Shown here in pieces: positions 620-24,517 of a stretch of DNA of 64,000 nt. Numbering within the stretch: position 1 is the first letter of the stretch; every line of letters starts with the position of its first letter. Origin of the DNA: Aerococcus viridans (GTDB taxonomy: Bacteria; Bacillota; Bacilli; Lactobacillales; Aerococcaceae); the NCBI RefSeq assembly GCF_002083135.2, contig NZ_NBTM02000001.1, positions 1,798,001-1,862,000 of the forward strand, given 5' to 3'. The notes under the pieces are model-generated. The model was given only the letters and a program-made list of their open reading frames with translations, had not been told where the DNA came from and made no database searches. The position numbers and the translations under genes are program-made.

Positions 620-2710
620 TTGGCCAAACCAACAAACCAAAATAATAAATCAACTTATGATGAAAGTTCGATCCAGGTATTAGAAGGCCTGGAAGCAGTT
701 AGAAAACGTCCTGGTATGTATATCGGGTCAACAGATGCACGTGGTTTACACCATTTAGTGTATGAGATTGTCGATAACTCAATTGATGAGGCCTTGAGTG
801 GGTATGCTGACCATATTACAGTAACCCTTGCTAAAGACGGTTCAGCAATTGTTACCGATAATGGACGTGGGATGCCGATTGGTAAACATACTAGCGGTAA
901 GCCGACTGTTGAGGTCATCTTAACGGTCCTTCATGCGGGTGGTAAATTCGGTGGTTCAGGTTATAAAACTTCAGGGGGTCTACACGGTGTAGGTTCATCT
1001 GTAGTAAATGCCTTGTCCAGCAAATTTATTGCCACAGTTCACCGGGACGGCAAGGAATACCACCAGGAATTTACCAATGGTGGTAAACCAGGCAAACCCA
1101 AAACAAAAGCCTTTAAAAGCAAAAACACCGGCACTAAAATCCAATTTTATCCGGATGCTGAAATTTTTGGCAATATTAAATTTGACCCGTCAACTATTCG
1201 GGAACACTTACGTGAATCAGCCTTTTTATTAAAAGACTTACGTATCGACTTTATTGATGAAATTAACGAGACTGAGGAAACCTTCCATTATGCAGAAGGG
1301 ATCAAGGCTTTTGTCGATTACTTAAATGAAGACAAAGACGTTTTACATGATGTCGTCTTTTTCCAAGGGGTTGAAAACGGGATTGAAATTGAATTGGCCT
1401 TCCAATATAACGATGGTTATTCGGAAACAGTCTTATCATTCGTCAATAACGTAAGAACTGCAGACGGCGGGACCCATGAATCGGGGATGCGAACAGGTTT
1501 AACCAAATCTTTCAATGAGTACGCCCGTAAGGTGGACTTGTTGAAGACTAAAGAAAAGAACCTTGAAGGGTCTGACGTACGAGAAGGGTATACAGCTGTC
1601 TTATCGTTACGGGTTCCTGAAGAAATCTTGCAGTTTGAAGGGCAAACCAAGTCTAAATTAGGGACACCACAAGCGCGTTCAGCTTCTGATAAAATCGTAT
1701 CTGAAAACTTAGCGGTTTACCTAATTGAAAACGGGGAAACAGCACAAATGCTGGTCCGTAAAGCTTTAAAAGCACGTGAAGCGAGAGATGCTGCCCGTAA
1801 AGCACGTGAAGCGTCTCGTGGCGCTAAGGGGAAACGTAAGGAAGTCCTATTATCTGGTAAATTAACGCCGGCACAGGGCCGTAATGCCAAGAAGAATGAA
1901 CTTTTCCTAGTGGAGGGAGATTCTGCCGGTGGTTCTGCTAAACAAGGGCGTGACCGTAAATTCCAGGCTATCTTGCCATTGCGTGGTAAGGTATTAAACA
2001 CTGAAAAAGCCAGCATTCAAGATATTCTAAAAAATGAAGAGTTGAACACCATCATCTATACCATTGGTGCAGGTGTAGGGGCTGAATTTGAGGTTGAAGA
2101 TGCTAACTACGATAAAGTCATCATCATGACCGATGCTGATACCGATGGGGCCCATATCCAGGTGCTACTGCTGACCTTCTTCTTCCGCTACATGAAACCT
2201 TTAGTAGAGGCTGGTAAAGTCTATCTCGCTATGCCACCATTGTATAAGGTGTCTAAGGGTAAAGGGAAAAACGAGGTCACTGAATATGCTTGGACGGATG
2301 ACGAGTTAAAAGCTGTGACTGATAAAGTCGGCAAAGGCTATATCTTACAACGGTACAAGGGTTTGGGTGAGATGAATGCGGACCAATTATGGGAAACAAC
2401 TATGGATCCTGAAACTCGTACCCTAGTCCGGGTAACAATTGACGATTTATCCCTAGCTGAAAGACGGGTATCTGTTTTAATGGGGAACAAGGTTGAACCT
2501 AGACGGAAATGGATTGAAGACAATGTGGCCTTCACCATGGATGAGGATGATACCCTACTTGAAAATGTCTCAGATACTGATGCTGGCGACAAGGAAGACG
2601 TTGTCGAGATTTTAGAAAACCAAAATCAAACCAGTATCACTGCTAACGAAGATGCGAATGACTTAGCTGGTGGGCAAATTAATTTATTTGATGAAGATGG
2701 TGATTATTAA
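620..2710 (+). CDS. parE: DNA topoisomerase IV subunit B (ParE)
   Basis: ATPase subunit of topoisomerase IV, which decatenates daughter chromosomes with ParC. It has a GHKL ATPase domain (NGRGMPIG, GGLHGVGSSVVNALS), a transducer domain, and a TOPRIM domain with EGDSAGGSA and TDADTDGAH, then QRYKGLGEMN near the end. The start is uncertain. ATG 587 has no ribosome site. The TTG at 620 is preceded by AGTGGGG and gives MAKPTNQ..., like the MAK start of ParE relatives, so TTG 620 is preferred. The stop overlaps the parC ATG by one base, so the two subunits are translationally coupled. Confidence 0.94.
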   Translation: MAKPTNQNNKSTYDESSIQVLEGLEAVRKRPGMYIGSTDARGLHHLVYEIVDNSIDEALSGYADHITVTLAKDGSAIVTDNGRGMPIGKHTSGKPTVEVILTVLHAGGKFGGSGYKTSGGLHGVGSSVVNALSSKFIATVHRDGKEYHQEFTNGGKPGKPKTKAFKSKNTGTKIQFYPDAEIFGNIKFDPSTIREHLRESAFLLKDLRIDFIDEINETEETFHYAEGIKAFVDYLNEDKDVLHDVVFFQGVENGIEIELAFQYNDGYSETVLSFVNNVRTADGGTHESGMRTGLTKSFNEYARKVDLLKTKEKNLEGSDVREGYTAVLSLRVPEEILQFEGQTKSKLGTPQARSASDKIVSENLAVYLIENGETAQMLVRKALKAREARDAARKAREASRGAKGKRKEVLLSGKLTPAQGRNAKKNELFLVEGDSAGGSAKQGRDRKFQAILPLRGKVLNTEKASIQDILKNEELNTIIYTIGAGVGAEFEVEDANYDKVIIMTDADTDGAHIQVLLLTFFFRYMKPLVEAGKVYLAMPPLYKVSKGKGKNEVTEYAWTDDELKAVTDKVGKGYILQRYKGLGEMNADQLWETTMDPETRTLVRVTIDDLSLAERRVSVLMGNKVEPRRKWIEDNVAFTMDEDDTLLENVSDTDAGDKEDVVEILENQNQTSITANEDANDLAGGQINLFDEDGDY

Positions 2711-5172
2711 TGGTTGAAATTCAAAAATTAACATTAGAAGAGGTAATGGGTGACCGTTTCGGACGGTATTCTAAATACATCATCCAAGACCGGGCGCTAC
2801 CTGACATTCGGGATGGATTAAAGCCAGTACAACGCCGGATTTTGTTCGCAATGTTTCAGGAGGGGAATACCTCTTCTTCAAACTTCCGTAAATCGGCCAA
2901 AACAGTCGGTAATGTAATTGGTAACTACCACCCCCACGGTGATTCATCAGTTTATGATGCCATGGTCCGTATGTCTCAAGACTGGAAGAACCGTGAAGTT
3001 TTAGTAGAAATGCACGGGAATAACGGGTCTATGGACGGTGACTCTGCAGCTGCTATGCGGTATACAGAAGCCCGTTTATCGAAGATTGCCGATGAATTAT
3101 TGCGTGATCTTGATAAAGACACGGTCGAAATGATCCTAAACTTTGATGACACGGCTGAAGAACCAACTGTTTTACCAGCAGGTTTCCCAAACCTATTGGT
3201 TAACGGGGCAACTGGTATTTCCGCTGGTTACGCGACTGAAATTCCGCCGCATAATCTAGGTGAAATTATTGATGCAACAACTTACCTAATCGACCATCCA
3301 AATGCCACAGTCAATAAGTTGATGGACTTTGTTCCTGGGCCAGATTTCCCAACAGGGGCTATTATCCAAGGGAAAGAGGAGTTGAAGAAAGCTTATACTT
3401 CTGGACGCGGGAAAGTCGTTGTTCGGTCTAAGCACCATATTGAAACAGACCGAGGTGGTAAAGAGAAAATCGTGATTACAGAAATTCCATATGAAGTAAA
3501 TAAGGCTAACCTAGTACGTCGGATGGATGAGTTACGGTTGAATCGGTCGATTGACGGGATTCAAGAAGTCCGCGATGAAACGGACCGTAACGGTCTACAA
3601 ATCGTGATTGAATTGAAAAAGGATGCGAGTTCTGACGCCATTCTAAATTACTTCTACAAAAATTCTGACCTGCAAATCAACTATAACTTCAACATGGTAG
3701 CCATTAATAACCAACGTCCTGAATTAGTCGGGATTAGAGAAGCTTTAAACGCTTATATCGGCCACCGTTATGAAATTATTCGTCGCCGGACAACCTTTGA
3801 TTTAAACAAGGCCCAACGTCGTTTACATATCGTAGACGGATTGGTCAAAGCCATGACTATTCTAGACCAAGTGATTGCGACGATTAGAAACTCTAAAAAT
3901 AAATCAGACTCTAAATACAACTTGATTGAAGCTTTTGATTTCTCAGAAGCCCAAGCAGAAGCGATCGTAAGCCTACAATTGTACCGTTTAACCAATACAG
4001 ACGTTACTGCTTTGGAAAATGAACGCCTACAATTAAACGAGGATATTGCTTCTTACCAAGCGATCTTGTCTGATGATAAAGTCCTTTATGGCCGGATGAA
4101 GTCTGAACTAAAAGCGATTAAGAAAGCTTACGCTTCTGAACGTCGTACTGAGATTCAAGACGAAATCCAAGAAGTCATCGTGAAGAAACAATTATTGATT
4201 CCTGAAGAAGACGTTGTCGTTGTAGTAACCCGTGGTGGTTATATCAAACGATCTAGTCTGCGATCATTTAAAGCTTCTGGTATTGAAGAAGTCGGTTTAC
4301 GTGAGGGAGACCATGTCCGATTCCTTGAAAAAATGTCTACTTTGGATCAGTTAGTATTCATAACCAATAAAGGGAACTACATCTTCCAACCAGTTTATGA
4401 ATTACAAGACATCCGTTGGAAAGACTTAGGGGAGCATATTTCGCAAAGAATTGCCTTTGCGAGTGACGAATCAATTATCGGTGTCTTTAAATACGATGAA
4501 AATAGCAAAGATAATCTGTTGCTTGCATCGGCTGCTGGTATGATTAAACAAACGGCATTGTCAGAATTCAAGGAATTCCGCGGTTACAAAAACAAATCAT
4601 CTTTAGCTATGAATTTATCCTCTGACACTGACCAAGTAATTGGTGTCTACCGTATTGACGGCGCAACTGACCAAAGCCAAGCTCAAGTCATCCTAGTGAC
4701 GTATTATGGTTTTACCTTAAGATACAGCATTGATGAAATTTCAATTATTGGTGCGCGTGCTAAAGGGGTTAAATCCATTAACTTGAAACAAGATGATTAT
4801 GTGGTTGGATTGTCCTACGCAGCCGTTCCAGATGACAACTTGCAATTGATGATGGTGACCCAAAGAGGGCATATGAAACGATTGAAATGGGCTGAAATTA
4901 ACGTTCTTGGTCGTGCTAAACGTGGTTTAGTGGCCTTGAAAGAATTGAAAACAAACCCACATCGTATTATTGCTGCCTTTGAAGTCATTGATACTAAACA
5001 GGTATTTGAAGTCATTACAAGCCAATCTCATCGTGAAAACTTTAGAGCAGGTGACGTGGCTATTGCCAACCGTTATTCAAACGGATCTATGCTTGTAGAC
5101 GAGAAAGACCATGGCCAAATTAGCTTAGTAACGCCGTTAATCGACTTCACGTCTTTTGATCCAGAAAAGTAA
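2710..5172 (+). CDS. parC: DNA topoisomerase IV subunit A (ParC)
   Basis: Breakage-reunion subunit of topoisomerase IV, 820 residues, the usual length. The winged-helix catalytic region carries Tyr118 in AMRYTEARLSK. The quinolone-resistance region reads HPHGDSSVYDAM, with Ser79 and Asp83 at the positions known from streptococcal ParC, so it looks like the sensitive form. The C-terminal half holds the beta-pinwheel repeats, for example VTRGGYIKR and VTQRGHMKR. It is cotranscribed with parE and followed by a terminator. The pair lies only about 10 kb from the dif-like site, a suggestive place for a decatenase, though this may be coincidence. Confidence 0.96.
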   Translation: MVEIQKLTLEEVMGDRFGRYSKYIIQDRALPDIRDGLKPVQRRILFAMFQEGNTSSSNFRKSAKTVGNVIGNYHPHGDSSVYDAMVRMSQDWKNREVLVEMHGNNGSMDGDSAAAMRYTEARLSKIADELLRDLDKDTVEMILNFDDTAEEPTVLPAGFPNLLVNGATGISAGYATEIPPHNLGEIIDATTYLIDHPNATVNKLMDFVPGPDFPTGAIIQGKEELKKAYTSGRGKVVVRSKHHIETDRGGKEKIVITEIPYEVNKANLVRRMDELRLNRSIDGIQEVRDETDRNGLQIVIELKKDASSDAILNYFYKNSDLQINYNFNMVAINNQRPELVGIREALNAYIGHRYEIIRRRTTFDLNKAQRRLHIVDGLVKAMTILDQVIATIRNSKNKSDSKYNLIEAFDFSEAQAEAIVSLQLYRLTNTDVTALENERLQLNEDIASYQAILSDDKVLYGRMKSELKAIKKAYASERRTEIQDEIQEVIVKKQLLIPEEDVVVVVTRGGYIKRSSLRSFKASGIEEVGLREGDHVRFLEKMSTLDQLVFITNKGNYIFQPVYELQDIRWKDLGEHISQRIAFASDESIIGVFKYDENSKDNLLLASAAGMIKQTALSEFKEFRGYKNKSSLAMNLSSDTDQVIGVYRIDGATDQSQAQVILVTYYGFTLRYSIDEISIIGARAKGVKSINLKQDDYVVGLSYAAVPDDNLQLMMVTQRGHMKRLKWAEINVLGRAKRGLVALKELKTNPHRIIAAFEVIDTKQVFEVITSQSHRENFRAGDVAIANRYSNGSMLVDEKDHGQISLVTPLIDFTSFDPEK

Positions 5173-5192
5173 ATTTTCAATTAAGAATACGA

Positions 5193-5232
5193 ACGTCTGC
5201 CAAATTTTTATTGTTTTGGTAGGCGTTTTGTT
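5193..5232 (+). terminator. Terminator after parC
   Basis: Stem ACGTCTGCCAAA (5193-5204) with TTTGGTAGGCGT (5215-5226), allowing two wobble pairs, followed by a T-rich tail. Confidence 0.75.
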
Positions 5233-5282
5233 ATAGGCTCAGTTTAGAAAAAAAGACAATTACTTAACTTAGTATTGATAAT

Positions 5283-5311
5283 TAGATATTAATAGCGTTC
5301 TTCGCTATAAT
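5283..5311 (+). promoter_or_regulatory. Probable promoter of the thiolase gene
   Basis: TAGATA at 5283-5288 and TATAAT at 5306-5311, 17-bp spacing, about 65 bp before the start codon. Confidence 0.5.
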
Positions 5312-5377
5312 GAAAGATATGAACATTTATTCGCGTATCTCAATCAAGAAAATGAATAGTTGATAAAGGAGAGTTTT

Positions 5378-6559
5378 ATGGAAGAAGTAGTCATTGTTGC
5401 AGCGAAACGTTCTGCAATTGGAAAATTTGGTGGCCAATTTAAAGGCATTTCAGCAGTCGATTTAGGGGTAGAAGTATTAAGAGAAACACTCGCTTCAATT
5501 GATTTAGACCCAACAAAAGTTGAACAAGTGATCTTGGGGAATGTATTAAGTGCAGGACTTGGCCAAAACGTTGCCCGCCAAGTTGCCCTAAAATCAGGTT
5601 TGTCTAACGAATCAACTGCCGTAACCATTAACCAAGTTTGTGGTTCAGGATTGCGTACTGTCATGATGGGCGCACAAGCTATCATGCTCGGTGACGCTGA
5701 TATTGTTGTCGCAGGTGGTACGGAAAATATGACTCGTGCACCTTACGTGGTTGATTCCGCTCGTTGGGGTCAGCGTATGGGCAACGGTCAAATGATTGAC
5801 ACTATGCTACACGATGGTCTAACTGATGCCTTCTCAAACGATGCGATGGGGATCACAGCAGAAAATATTGCGGACCAATACGGGATTTCCCGTGAAGCCC
5901 AAGATGAATTTGCAGCAGCTAGCCAAGTCAAAGCTGTAGCAGCGAAAGAGGCTGGACGTTTTGTAGAAGAAATTGTCCCAGTGACTATCCAACAAAAAAA
6001 TGGCACGCAAGTAGTGACTGAAGATGAGGGGCCACGTTCGGGTATTACACCAAAACGTTTGGGTAAATTGCAACCAGCTTTTAAAGAAGAGGGGACAGTG
6101 ACAGCAGGTAACTCATCAGGTATCAATGATGGGGCAGCAATGCTTGTCTTAATGTCTAAGCGTAAGGCCGATGAACTAGGGCTTAAACCCATGGTATCCA
6201 TTGCTTCTTACGCAACGGGTGGGGTAGATCCTTCAATTATGGGGACAGGCCCAATCCCAACAACGATCAAGGCCTTAGAAAAGGCCAATATTACAGCAGG
6301 AGACCTAGATTTAATTGAGGCCAATGAAGCCTTTGCATCCCAAGCATTATGTGTAACTACAAGCCTAGAATTGCCAGCTGAAAAGGTTAACGTGAACGGT
6401 GGGGCAATTGCCCTTGGTCATCCGATTGGTGCGTCAGGCGCCCGTATCTTGGTTACTTTGATCCATGAAATGCAAAAACGTCAGTCAGTTTATGGTTTAG
6501 CGACCCTATGTGTGGGCGGCGGTCAAGGGGTATCCGTCATTGTAAAGCAAGCAGTTTAA
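5378..6559 (+). CDS. Acetyl-CoA C-acetyltransferase (thiolase)
   Basis: Condenses two acetyl-CoA to acetoacetyl-CoA, or the reverse; cytoplasmic. The start is ATG 5378, placed by AAAGGAG at 5365-5371, giving 393 residues, typical for biosynthetic thiolases. The active site is complete: Cys88 in NQVCGSGLRT, His348 in GGAIALGHPIGASGAR, Cys378 in TLCVGGGQG. In this order such enzymes can feed the mevalonate pathway, but no HMG-CoA synthase or reductase gene is adjacent. The pathway is therefore inferred, not shown. The gene appears to be monocistronic. Confidence 0.93.
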   Translation: MEEVVIVAAKRSAIGKFGGQFKGISAVDLGVEVLRETLASIDLDPTKVEQVILGNVLSAGLGQNVARQVALKSGLSNESTAVTINQVCGSGLRTVMMGAQAIMLGDADIVVAGGTENMTRAPYVVDSARWGQRMGNGQMIDTMLHDGLTDAFSNDAMGITAENIADQYGISREAQDEFAAASQVKAVAAKEAGRFVEEIVPVTIQQKNGTQVVTEDEGPRSGITPKRLGKLQPAFKEEGTVTAGNSSGINDGAAMLVLMSKRKADELGLKPMVSIASYATGGVDPSIMGTGPIPTTIKALEKANITAGDLDLIEANEAFASQALCVTTSLELPAEKVNVNGGAIALGHPIGASGARILVTLIHEMQKRQSVYGLATLCVGGGQGVSVIVKQAV

Positions 6560-19576: not shown

Positions 19577-20929
19577 TTATTGATTGGCTTTACCATTTTC
19601 GTAAAATAACACTTGCTCATCTGCTGGTACCATTGACCCACCAGTTGCCCATGCAATATGGGTCATGTTAGCTACTTTATCTGTTAAGTTCTTATGACGC
19701 AGATAGTTTTGCCCCGCTTCAGTAGTGAAGAGTCTTTGAGGACCAACTAATCCTGCTGTGGCTGCTGGCTCTACAAAAATATCTTCTACATCTTTCAATG
19801 TTGTTAGTAGGCGATTAGACTCTTTGTCAGTCAATGTATAACCACCATCAAAGATGCCTGACATTAATTTAGCTACTATTTGAGAGGTTCTAGGTACTGC
19901 TAGACCGTCCATAACGGTTAAGCCATCAATCCCAAAGTCATAGACTGAAATATCTGCAAATTTCTTAGAGATTAATCCTAATAACATAGATGGTACATGG
20001 GTTGGTTGAGCAAAGAAGCAGTGAACATGATCCCCGTAAATTTGTTTCAAACCATAAGTAATACCACCTGGACTACCGCCCACACCACATGGTAGATACA
20101 CCATAAGTGGATGGTCTTCATCGACAACGATTCCTTGATCAGCTAACTGTTTTTCAAGTCTTGATGCTGCTGTTGTATAACCTAAGAACAATTGAATTGA
20201 ATGTTCGTCATCAATAAAGTAAGCATATGGATCAGATTGAGCTGATTGACGCCCTTGGTCTACGGCTTCTGTGAAGTTGGTCTTATGTTCGATTACTTGG
20301 ACACCGTGGCTTCTTAAGTAGTCTTTCTTCCATTGCTTGGCTTCGTGGGACATATGAACTTGGACATTGAAACCAATTTTGGCAGACATCACACCTGAAG
20401 AAATCCCCAAGTTACCTGTAGTCCCTACAACTACAGTGTACTGTTTAAAGAAATCTTGGAATGTCTTAGTCGCAAATTTCGAGTAGTCATCGTCATAACC
20501 TGATAATAATTTCTCTTCAAAGGCTAATGCTTCAGCATGATGCAAGACTTCATAAATAGCCCCTCGAGCCTTAATAGTACCGGCAATCGGTAATAAGTCA
20601 TCCCGTTTTAGGAACATTTGGCCAGGAAATGAAAAATCATAAGTGGTTTCTAACGCAGTCTTGAATTTGTCAATGTCAGAAATTGGCGATTCAATCAGAC
20701 CATCTAAAGCCACCGTATCTTCGAAGACGGCTTTGATAAATGGTGCAAATCGTTTTAATCGTGCCTCTGCGTCTTTAATCTCTAGGACTGACACATCCAG
20801 TTGCCCTTTTAAGTTCTTGAAAGGTACATGGCTATCATTCTCCCAAAAAACGGGCTTACGGTCACGAATATCACCCAATGTTCTTTGATTCACCTGTTCT
20901 CTTGTTTCATATATAGATTCTGTTGACAT
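19577..20929 (-). CDS. dsdA: D-serine ammonia-lyase (D-serine dehydratase)
   Basis: PLP enzyme that converts D-serine to pyruvate and ammonia; 450 residues, the usual length. The PLP lysine is Lys120 in AGTIKARGAIYEVLHHAE; the phosphate-binding glycine loop is VYLPCGVGGSPGG; VGTTGNLGISSGV is also family-typical. AAGGGTGG lies ahead of the ATG. No D-serine transporter or DsdC regulator is adjacent. It would let the cell remove D-serine, which occurs in urine and animal hosts, and use it as a carbon or nitrogen source. Confidence 0.93.
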   Translation of the reverse strand: MSTESIYETREQVNQRTLGDIRDRKPVFWENDSHVPFKNLKGQLDVSVLEIKDAEARLKRFAPFIKAVFEDTVALDGLIESPISDIDKFKTALETTYDFSFPGQMFLKRDDLLPIAGTIKARGAIYEVLHHAEALAFEEKLLSGYDDDYSKFATKTFQDFFKQYTVVVGTTGNLGISSGVMSAKIGFNVQVHMSHEAKQWKKDYLRSHGVQVIEHKTNFTEAVDQGRQSAQSDPYAYFIDDEHSIQLFLGYTTAASRLEKQLADQGIVVDEDHPLMVYLPCGVGGSPGGITYGLKQIYGDHVHCFFAQPTHVPSMLLGLISKKFADISVYDFGIDGLTVMDGLAVPRTSQIVAKLMSGIFDGGYTLTDKESNRLLTTLKDVEDIFVEPAATAGLVGPQRLFTTEAGQNYLRHKNLTDKVANMTHIAWATGGSMVPADEQVLFYENGKANQ

Positions 20930-22806: not shown

Positions 22807-24222
22807 CTAGAATGGCCCATAGCCTACAAAATGGGCGAAGATTAAAAATGCCAATCCAATTAAAATATAAATGGTTAGTAATGGCATAAACCATTTAAAC
22901 CATTTGTTATATGGAATTTTAGCCAGTGATAATTCAGCCATCAGGACACCGGATGTTGGAATAATGGCATCCATGAAACCTGAACCTAATTGGAAAGCAA
23001 GTACAGCTGTTTGTCTTGTGACATCTAGTGAGTCTGCAATTGGTAACATGATTGGCATCGTTGCTGCTGCTTGTCCTGAACCAGATGGGATAAAGAAATT
23101 GATCAAGATTTGAATCACGTACATACCAACTGAACCTAGAATAGCTGGGAAAATGTTCACTACTTGTACAAGATAGTAAATAATTGTATCTAAGATCATC
23201 CCATTTTCCATGACTACTAAAATACCGCGGGCAAATACAATGGCAAGTACTGAGAACATCATTTCACCGGCCCCCGAAACGAATGTGTCGGCTATTTTGC
23301 CAGTTGAAAGACCCCCAATTAATGCGGAAACAACTGCCATGGTAAAGAACATTGCGACTAGTTCGTCGATAAACCAACCAATTTGGAAGACACCGTAAAC
23401 CATCATGGCAAAACCAGCTAACAAAGCCACCGAAATCCACTTGTGACGTGCTGAAAATGCTGGTAATTCTTGTTCGCTTAAGTCTTTGTAATCATCTGCA
23501 GCTTTATCAGCAGCTTCTAAATCAGCAACGTCGCTTTTGCTTGGATCAGCTTTGACTTTTTTCGCATAACGCATAATAAAAATCGTTGTCACTGCCCAAA
23601 GAACAATGAATAAGGCGATACGTAAGCCAACACCTGAGAATAATGGTAATTCGGCTAAGGCTTGGGCAACGCCTACTGAGAATGGGTTCATAAAACCGGC
23701 ATTAAAGCCGACTGCAGCCCCAAGAATTAAAACGGCAATCCCTGTCATGGCGTCGTAGCCTAAAGCTCTAGCTAGTGCGATACCGATTGGGATGAAAAGG
23801 ATAATTTCCTCTGATAAACCTAAAGTGGCACCACCTAAACCAGTCACAAAAACAAGAATGGGAATGAAAACTTCCTCGCGTCCTTTTAAGGCACGGACTA
23901 AACGTCCCATTAAGGCTTCAAGAATGCCTGTTTCGTTAATCAATTTGAATGATCCACCTGTGATAAAGAGGAAGAATACGATAGATCCTACCTCAATAAA
24001 AGCTTGCGGTAAGGCCAGAATCAACTGGAAGGGACTTTGTGGGCTAGAATCAATAAAATGGAAAGAATCTGGGACTAAAACAGTCCGATCATCGACCAGT
24101 GTCCGTTCGAACGCCCCTGCTGGAATAACCCAGGTTAAGACCATCATGATGACCATGATTGAAAATAAAAGCACTAATGCATTAGGCATTTGTAACTTTT
24201 TTGGAAAAAGTTTTGATTTCAT
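22807..24222 (-). CDS. YfcC-family membrane transporter, lysine-riboswitch controlled
   Basis: Integral membrane carrier, 471 residues and about 12 helices, of the YfcC/AitC group. ATG 24222, behind AAAAGGAGC, is preferred over an upstream open frame. LGLSEEIILFIPIGIALARALGYD, GAAVGFNAGFMNPFSVGVAQ, FFIPSGSGQAAATMPIMLPIAD and MDAIIPTSGVLMA are the conserved paired stretches. Relatives are annotated as arginine/ornithine- or C4-dicarboxylate-type carriers. A lysine riboswitch in the leader points to lysine or a lysine derivative. The M20 amidohydrolase gene is downstream in the same unit. Confidence 0.88.
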   Translation of the reverse strand: MKSKLFPKKLQMPNALVLLFSIMVIMMVLTWVIPAGAFERTLVDDRTVLVPDSFHFIDSSPQSPFQLILALPQAFIEVGSIVFFLFITGGSFKLINETGILEALMGRLVRALKGREEVFIPILVFVTGLGGATLGLSEEIILFIPIGIALARALGYDAMTGIAVLILGAAVGFNAGFMNPFSVGVAQALAELPLFSGVGLRIALFIVLWAVTTIFIMRYAKKVKADPSKSDVADLEAADKAADDYKDLSEQELPAFSARHKWISVALLAGFAMMVYGVFQIGWFIDELVAMFFTMAVVSALIGGLSTGKIADTFVSGAGEMMFSVLAIVFARGILVVMENGMILDTIIYYLVQVVNIFPAILGSVGMYVIQILINFFIPSGSGQAAATMPIMLPIADSLDVTRQTAVLAFQLGSGFMDAIIPTSGVLMAELSLAKIPYNKWFKWFMPLLTIYILIGLAFLIFAHFVGYGPF

Positions 24223-24242
24223 AAAAAAGCTCCTTTTAAAAA

Positions 24243-24482
24243 TTTGAATAAAAAATACCAAGGCAAGCAAAAGCTCGACTTGGTATTGGTTTAATACAGA
24301 AATCACTTTTGCCCGCAAAATAGAAAGCGCTCCTGGAAGGAATTGGGCATTCCTTTTTGGCAGTGATGCATTTTTTTAATACACCCCCAACAGTAAATCA
24401 TACTGTTTCGGCTAATAACCCTTTCTCCAAATGGATACTGATGTGATTAGCGGCCTCTTTCTATTCCGCATTTATTCATTTA
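24243..24482 (-). ncRNA. Lysine riboswitch (L box) with intrinsic terminator
   Basis: Read on the reverse strand. P1 is AATAGAAAG (about 24457-24465) with CTTTCTATT (about 24318-24327). Inside are AGAGG and AGTA...TTTGGAGAAAGG (24421-24440 region), GCCGAA followed by the hairpin ACAGTA/TACTGT, a GGGGTGTATT-type bulge segment, then ACTGCC with the hairpin AAGGAAT/ATTCCTT ending CCAGGAGCGC. The order and sequences match the lysC-type lysine riboswitch as I know it. A terminator follows: AATACCAAG (24279-24287) with CTTGGTATT (24254-24262) and a T run. Lysine should stop transcription ahead of the transporter. Confidence 0.85.
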
Positions 24483-24488
24483 AGTCTA

Positions 24489-24517
24489 ATCTTATGAAAT
24501 AAAAGGTACAATGTCAA
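24489..24517 (-). promoter_or_regulatory. Promoter of the lysine riboswitch unit
   Basis: Reverse strand TTGACA (24512-24517), 17-bp spacer, TAAGAT (24489-24494). The start would be near 24482, just before the aptamer. Confidence 0.75.

Follow-up and report, generated by a model that had tools for sequence, protein, structure and literature searches.

The leader in front of a yfcC-family carrier gene and an M20 hydrolase gene raises the questions of what it senses, in which direction it switches, and what the two proteins bring to the cell. In the earlier note it was read as a lysine riboswitch lying behind a good promoter and followed by a terminator, and a search with the Rfam model in Infernal was named as the check. 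Such a search (cmscan) of the window, that is the whole 64 kb stretch of DNA analysed, returned the lysine riboswitch as the only Rfam match; it spans the full RF00168 model (1-182) with 78.8 bits, the gathering score being 30. The promoter and, at 24287-24254, the terminator hairpin with its U run are both found, and the limits given for the leader, 24243-24517, were correctly placed. The aptamer, the terminator, the gene order and the conserved arrangement are established by sequence; the riboswitch is real and ordinary in its class, and it would be expected to bind lysine. It is quite probable that the locus is a lysine-responsive OFF switch (L-box) on the transcription of a two-gene operon, encoding a carrier for cationic amino acids and an M20 dipeptidase, and that the switch makes use of a pseudoknot formed by L5. 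The features are collected in Table 1.

Table 1. Features of the leader and the operon, in window coordinates; the last line refers to another locus, L161.
Feature	Position	Strand	Basis or remark
Promoter TTGACA-17-TAAGAT, sigma-70-type	24489..24517	-	consensus scan, 10/12 matches
P1, 5' strand UGCGGAAUAGAAAG	24457..24470	-	
Lysine riboswitch aptamer, compact form	24317..24467	-	RF00168, 78.8 bits, E 6.5e-19
P2 with loop-E (AGUA/GAAA) and short capping hairpin UCCAUUUGGA; without K-turn, without L2	24411..24451	-	
P3, 7 bp, 5-nt loop	24389..24407	-	covariation in compact set
P4	24365..24385	-	covariation in compact set
P5, lengthened, loop GCCCA as cap	24337..24355	-	
L5 strand UGCCC of predicted pseudoknot	24345..24349	-	
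P1, 3' strand CUUUCUAUUUUGCG	24314..24327	-	
3'-flank strand GGGCA of predicted pseudoknot, within switching strand GCGGGCAAAAG	24310..24314	-	
Antiterminator, 5' arm GCGGGCAAAAGUGAUUU	24300..24316	-	post-aptamer segment alone folds into hairpin, -22.6 kcal/mol
Antiterminator, 3' arm core CUUUUGCUUGC, overlaps terminator	24263..24273	-	11-bp duplex, -13.6 kcal/mol
Intrinsic terminator and U tract	24247..24287	-	-17.7 kcal/mol
Ribosome-binding site AAAAGGAGC	24229..24237	-	sequence; precedes ATG of yfcC-family gene at 24222
yfcC-family carrier (IT superfamily, ArcE-like), 471 aa	22807..24222	-	PF03606, 325 bits
M20 hydrolase, HmrA/PM20D2 type, 390 aa	21616..22788	-	TIGR01891 above cut-off
L161, operon-like row: YfcC ortholog, arginine deiminase, ornithine carbamoyltransferase	4487-5899, 2724-4022, 1478-2482		

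The aptamer is of a compact form, an aspect of its architecture that the earlier note overlooked. It shares with the canonical L-box (RF00168) the five-helix core, the loop-E motif in P2, the switching by P1 and the terminator platform. Alignment to the consensus gives the junction core as AGAGG, GAAAGG, GCCGAA, UGGG, CUG and GAG.GCU, in columns that are invariant in 31 compact aptamers, and the loop-E (sarcin-ricin) motif of P2 as AGUA/GAAA. P1 can be extended to 14 bp (24470-24457 with 24327-24314). In contrast to the canonical form, there is no P2b, K-turn, L2 or L2-L3 kissing loop, and P5 is lengthened, with a loop complementary to the strand that follows P1. The K-turn in P2 and the kissing loop, features that are common but not universal, were looked for in the aptamer alignment and are absent, and the P2 span from AGAGG to GCCGA is 45-46 nt as compared to 63-70 nt in full-length lysine aptamers. 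Without K-turn, P2b and L2 the kissing loop cannot form. The loop has been called essential in model lysine riboswitches (PMC3764141), and a paper of 2007 remarked on variants that lack the K-turn (PMC2258182), T. maritima also being cited for such a variant. The remaining helices are supported by compensatory changes at 16 of 23 predicted pairs of P2 (with its capping hairpin), P3 and P4 in the 31 compact aptamers.

In the Aerococcaceae, compact aptamers precede lysA, dapA, dapF, ABC transporter genes and yfcC (gene names read from translations). None of the compact aptamers was caught by a strict regular expression; it was the Rfam model that found them. Our phylum-wide sample comprised 399 genomes, and the count of compact aptamers in it is a lower bound; among the matches listed, hits of at most 162 nt come from this genome and at least seven others, in three further families. 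Four of these seven outside genomes have a clean aptamer and a readable downstream gene, and there the aptamer lies before lysA- or aspartokinase-like genes and carries the same motifs. One compact lysine riboswitch (L223, genome G034) has no open frame of at least 80 aa starting within 450 nt downstream.

The direction of the switch is suggested by the alternative folds of the leader. In predicted folding P1 contributes -15.7 kcal/mol, next to the antiterminator duplex and the terminator of Table 1, and the whole leader reaches -73.3 kcal/mol with the terminator as compared to -69.2 kcal/mol with the antiterminator enforced, so the aptamer together with the terminator is preferred. The folding beats all of 200 shuffles (z -3.4). 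When lysine is bound, the RNA would take the five-helix aptamer form with P1, and L5 (UGCCC) would probably pair with GGGCA just past P1. The switching strand GCGGGCAAAAG would thereby be kept from its partner CUUUUGCUUGC, the terminator would form and the operon would be off; without lysine the two strands would pair, no terminator would form and the yfcC and M20 genes would be transcribed. There are 95 nt between the 3' end of the aptamer and the start of yfcC, and 18 nt between yfcC and the M20 gene. In related leaders (L006-L010) the flank motif is kept, together with a CUUUUG stretch in the terminator.

In the crystal structure P1 and P5 are packed as a two-helix bundle, which would place L5 near the foot of P1. 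The GGGCA strand abuts P1 and sits inside the antiterminator arm. P5 of the compact aptamers has a mean length of 11 bp, its loop is mostly (U)UGCCCA and the sequence after P1 mostly GGGCAAAAG, loop and flank being complementary. A pairing score of at least 10 is found in 46 of 49 compact aptamers, whereas on average 17.0 reach it when the flanks are shuffled, and of 1000 partner swaps none attains the observed mean score. In a redundancy-reduced set (n=36) the mean score is 12.9, against 11.6 for swapped, 6.4 for shuffled and 8.3 for reversed flanks, with one swap in 1000 reaching the observed mean, and 28 in 1000 when redundancy is cut more strictly (n=18). Compensations could be seen by eye in GUCC/GGAC (L204), GCCA/UGGC (L210), GCCU/AGGC (L010), AUCCC/GGGAU (L206) and GGCCC/GGGCC (L211). 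In a MAFFT alignment 85.5% of the cells are paired as compared to 83.4% after shuffling, a value that 23 of 500 shuffles reach, and there are two double changes; some flanks are out of register in this alignment, and pairing is 28-54% when the strands are slid. The motif is conserved, which leaves the formal covariation for the pseudoknot weak.

It is possible, if less probable, that L5 and the flank do not pair with each other, the flank being kept only for its antiterminator pairing and L5 for another contact. This would fit the weak covariation, and the flank is also complementary to the terminator region, but it does not explain the five compensations listed above, nor why compact aptamers have the two motifs together while full-length ones lack both, including the full-length aptamer in this same genome. 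We lean towards pairing, and consider the compact lysine riboswitches of the Aerococcaceae and some clostridia to be, on balance, a distinct variant in which the lysine-bound state is locked by a pseudoknot of L5 with the switching strand, in place of the K-turn and the L2-L3 kissing loop. As L5 would pair with the switching strand after P1, ligand binding and the expression platform would be coupled directly. The cobalamin riboswitch works in a similar manner, a C-rich loop pairing with a sequence outside the core and controlling expression (PMC2258182), but its aptamer, ligand and helix are different.

Two other partners of L5, the UGGG of J3/4-P4 and the GGG after loop-E, were considered and rejected; full-length aptamers conserve these bases as well, and the UGG of the former is already paired in the Rfam structure. 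When every lysine aptamer with a long P5 is taken together, the swap control favours a pseudoknot (0 of 1000), but there the reversed flank scores alike (10.2 vs 10.4). Since this control equals the real flank in the full-length aptamers with a long P5, we do not claim the pseudoknot for them. The full-length aptamers of the Lactobacillales give no pairing signal, 837 of 1000 swaps reaching the observed value. Across the phylum (L236-L319), a C-rich L5 together with a G-rich 3' flank is seen in many of the full-length aptamers whose P5 is long; L290, L294, L301, L314 and L259 have 6-8 complementary bases between the two, with the reversed-flank control equal on average.

No earlier description of the L5 contact was found in the literature searched, the coverage of which is incomplete, and a prior report is possible. 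A 2026 study of covariation in whole riboswitches does not describe it, and the accessible part of a 2007 mutual-information study, which presented eleven new contacts, names none in the lysine riboswitch. The compact form with its likely pseudoknot is probably the part that merits the attention of specialists. Among model RNAs the lysine riboswitch is a standard one, and it has been proposed as a drug target; a natural group without the L2-L3 kissing loop, with a candidate replacement contact at the switch strand, would show one core working on different scaffolding.

The carrier belongs to the YfcC family, as the earlier note had it. It matches PF03606 (DcuC) with 325 bits, where the gathering score is 23.1, and its best NCBIfam model is YfcC (NF008611), the 327 bits being below the cut-off of 500; it is a member of the family and not an equivalog of E. 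coli YfcC. A search of solved structures with the carrier sequence gave no match. The annotation chain YfcC / basic amino acid antiporter places it in the same carrier family as ArcE (TC 2.A.118). ArcE of S. pneumoniae takes up arginine and ornithine with an affinity of about 1 micromolar, binds lysine with high affinity and is an electroneutral exchanger, and its gene adjoins arcT (PMC5300872). The arcE locus has the context of an ADI operon, whereas the carrier gene in the window lies behind a lysine riboswitch. An Aerococcus ortholog (genome G008, locus L161) is found in the order yfcC-arcA-arcB and without a lysine riboswitch, arcA and arcB being read from sequence.

The positions of riboswitches and YfcC hits were compared in 77 Aerococcaceae genomes. 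An ortholog with at least 46% identity is present in 17 of them, and in 12 of the 17 a lysine riboswitch is located just upstream; five Aerococcus orthologs are without it. YfcC proteins of the 77 genomes that are more distant (below 46% identity) all lack a lysine riboswitch upstream. In five of the 12, all from the genus g16 (L125-L129), yfcC is not followed by an M20 gene, which implies that hydrolysis is not obligatory and that carrier and hydrolase need not share one substrate. Outside the family, YfcC-M20 pairs follow lysine riboswitches in Clostridium and Turicibacter (L041, L056, L057, L060, L078, L080). Intestinibacter, Terrisporobacter and their relatives have a T-box instead, before the pair or before M20 or YfcC alone. 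Seven T-boxes before M20 and/or YfcC in Peptostreptococcaceae and relatives (L062, L065, L069, L070, L073, L082, L024), all above the gathering score, have the specifier AGA (Arg) without exception. The specifier column was checked in this genome, where it gives UCC for the T-box upstream of serS and AUG for the one upstream of a metY-like gene, the identities being read from protein sequence. In a tree of 50 YfcC proteins the lysine label clusters, and four YfcC-M20 members with an arginine T-box are nested in a clostridial clade whose other members are mostly lysine-switched.

This comparative context points to the supply of a cationic amino acid, lysine or arginine, and the theme is strengthened by the swaps to arginine T-boxes. 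That the same cassette is under a lysine riboswitch or an arginine T-box depending on genus also narrows the substrate of a carrier that is uncharacterised in C. difficile. Transport of basic amino acids by the carrier is well supported by context, and it most likely imports cationic amino acids (lysine, perhaps arginine) in the manner of ArcE. As a separate observation, three T-boxes of this genome (L145, L147 and L154) have the specifier CGC (Arg), and amino-acid ABC transporter genes follow L145 and L154.

The M20 assignment of the earlier note agrees with the match to TIGR01891 (201.7 bits, above the cut-off), which makes the second protein an M20 amidohydrolase. Its closest solved structures are HmrA (3ram, E 4e-89) and an Xaa-Arg dipeptidase (7yh4, E 2e-75), the next one being at 4e-11, and the metal and catalytic motifs GCGHN, PAEE, HPS and HT are conserved in the alignment. 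The best structural kin are thus PM20D2 / Xaa-Arg dipeptidase and HmrA; PM20D2 is mammalian, the enzyme in the window bacterial. Going by the title of a report on it (Veiga-da-Cunha 2014), PM20D2 has reportedly been identified as a beta-alanyl-lysine dipeptidase. The enzyme is most likely a dipeptidase of the PM20D2/HmrA type, and it most likely acts on small conjugates, Xaa-Lys dipeptides for example, to release the basic amino acid; Xaa-Arg would also be a plausible substrate.

The earlier note had proposed that lysine, or an acylated or dipeptide form of it, is imported and then hydrolysed. A parallel in function is the use of p-aminobenzoyl-glutamate by AbgT with AbgA/AbgB, where an IT-superfamily carrier also stands beside an M20 amidohydrolase. 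That the carrier and the M20 enzyme form such a scavenging pair for conjugated lysine appears rather doubtful. The two genes are usually paired, here at the short distance given above, and the kinship with PM20D2 would suit it; the AbgT profile matches the carrier weakly and below its cut-off, and the AbgB-type structure 3io1 is a weak match to the hydrolase. On the other hand, a lysine-switched yfcC is found with no adjacent M20 gene in five genomes of one genus, YfcC-family ArcE carries free amino acids, and many M20 relatives are without yfcC alongside. The arginine T-boxes, the arcA-arcB neighbour and the riboswitch-yfcC loci without M20 suggest that the carrier probably handles lysine or arginine itself. 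Of the proposal, then, the import of basic amino acids is borne out by the kinetics of ArcE, the T-boxes and the arcA-arcB neighbour, and for an acylated or dipeptide form the likeness to PM20D2 is no more than a suggestion; the hydrolase family stands, and its coupling to import is not obligatory.

It is unlikely that the carrier is instead an exporter or exchanger, for example one that trades lysine or arginine for ornithine or cadaverine, with lysine control serving pH or energy balance. The electroneutral exchange by ArcE and the ortholog placed with arcA-arcB would agree with this, and similar proposals have been made for NhaC/LysW under lysine riboswitches (PMC11477304). But an OFF switch lowers expression at high lysine, which is the wrong direction for exporting an excess, and the two further lysine riboswitches of the genome serve uptake and synthesis, being upstream of an ABC amino-acid transporter and of dapA. 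Import of the free cationic amino acid is the preferred reading for the carrier. It is highly improbable that the hydrolase acts in lysine synthesis as the N-acetyl-diaminopimelate deacetylase (DapL): it is M20D-like and lysine-controlled, and amidohydrolase genes are present in some lysine operons (PMC5584792), but HmrA and PM20D2 are nearest to it among solved structures, another gene of the genome matches the amidohydrolase profile better (290.7 vs 201.2 bits), and such a role is at odds with the arginine T-boxes that precede this gene in other genera.

A 2024 review describes a C. difficile lysine riboswitch before CD3100-3099, which are yfcC and an M20D amidohydrolase gene, and calls YfcC uncharacterised (PMC11477304); with this arrangement already in print, the association is not new. 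It is the same riboswitch class and the same gene order in a different lineage. The aptamers before yfcC in Clostridium and Turicibacter, that of C. difficile not being among them, are full-length, whereas the one in Aerococcus is compact. YfcC is missing from the transporter genes in the table of a 2017 survey of lysine riboswitches (PMC5584792), and a search for lysine riboswitch and Aerococcus together found no report of the yfcC-M20 association in Aerococcaceae. With its counterpart in Aerococcus sp. UBA6277 the M20 gene shares 96% identity. Further downstream in the window lies a D-serine ammonia-lyase gene (19577-20929, minus strand), and a convergent chorismate mutase gene is situated between it and the M20 gene.
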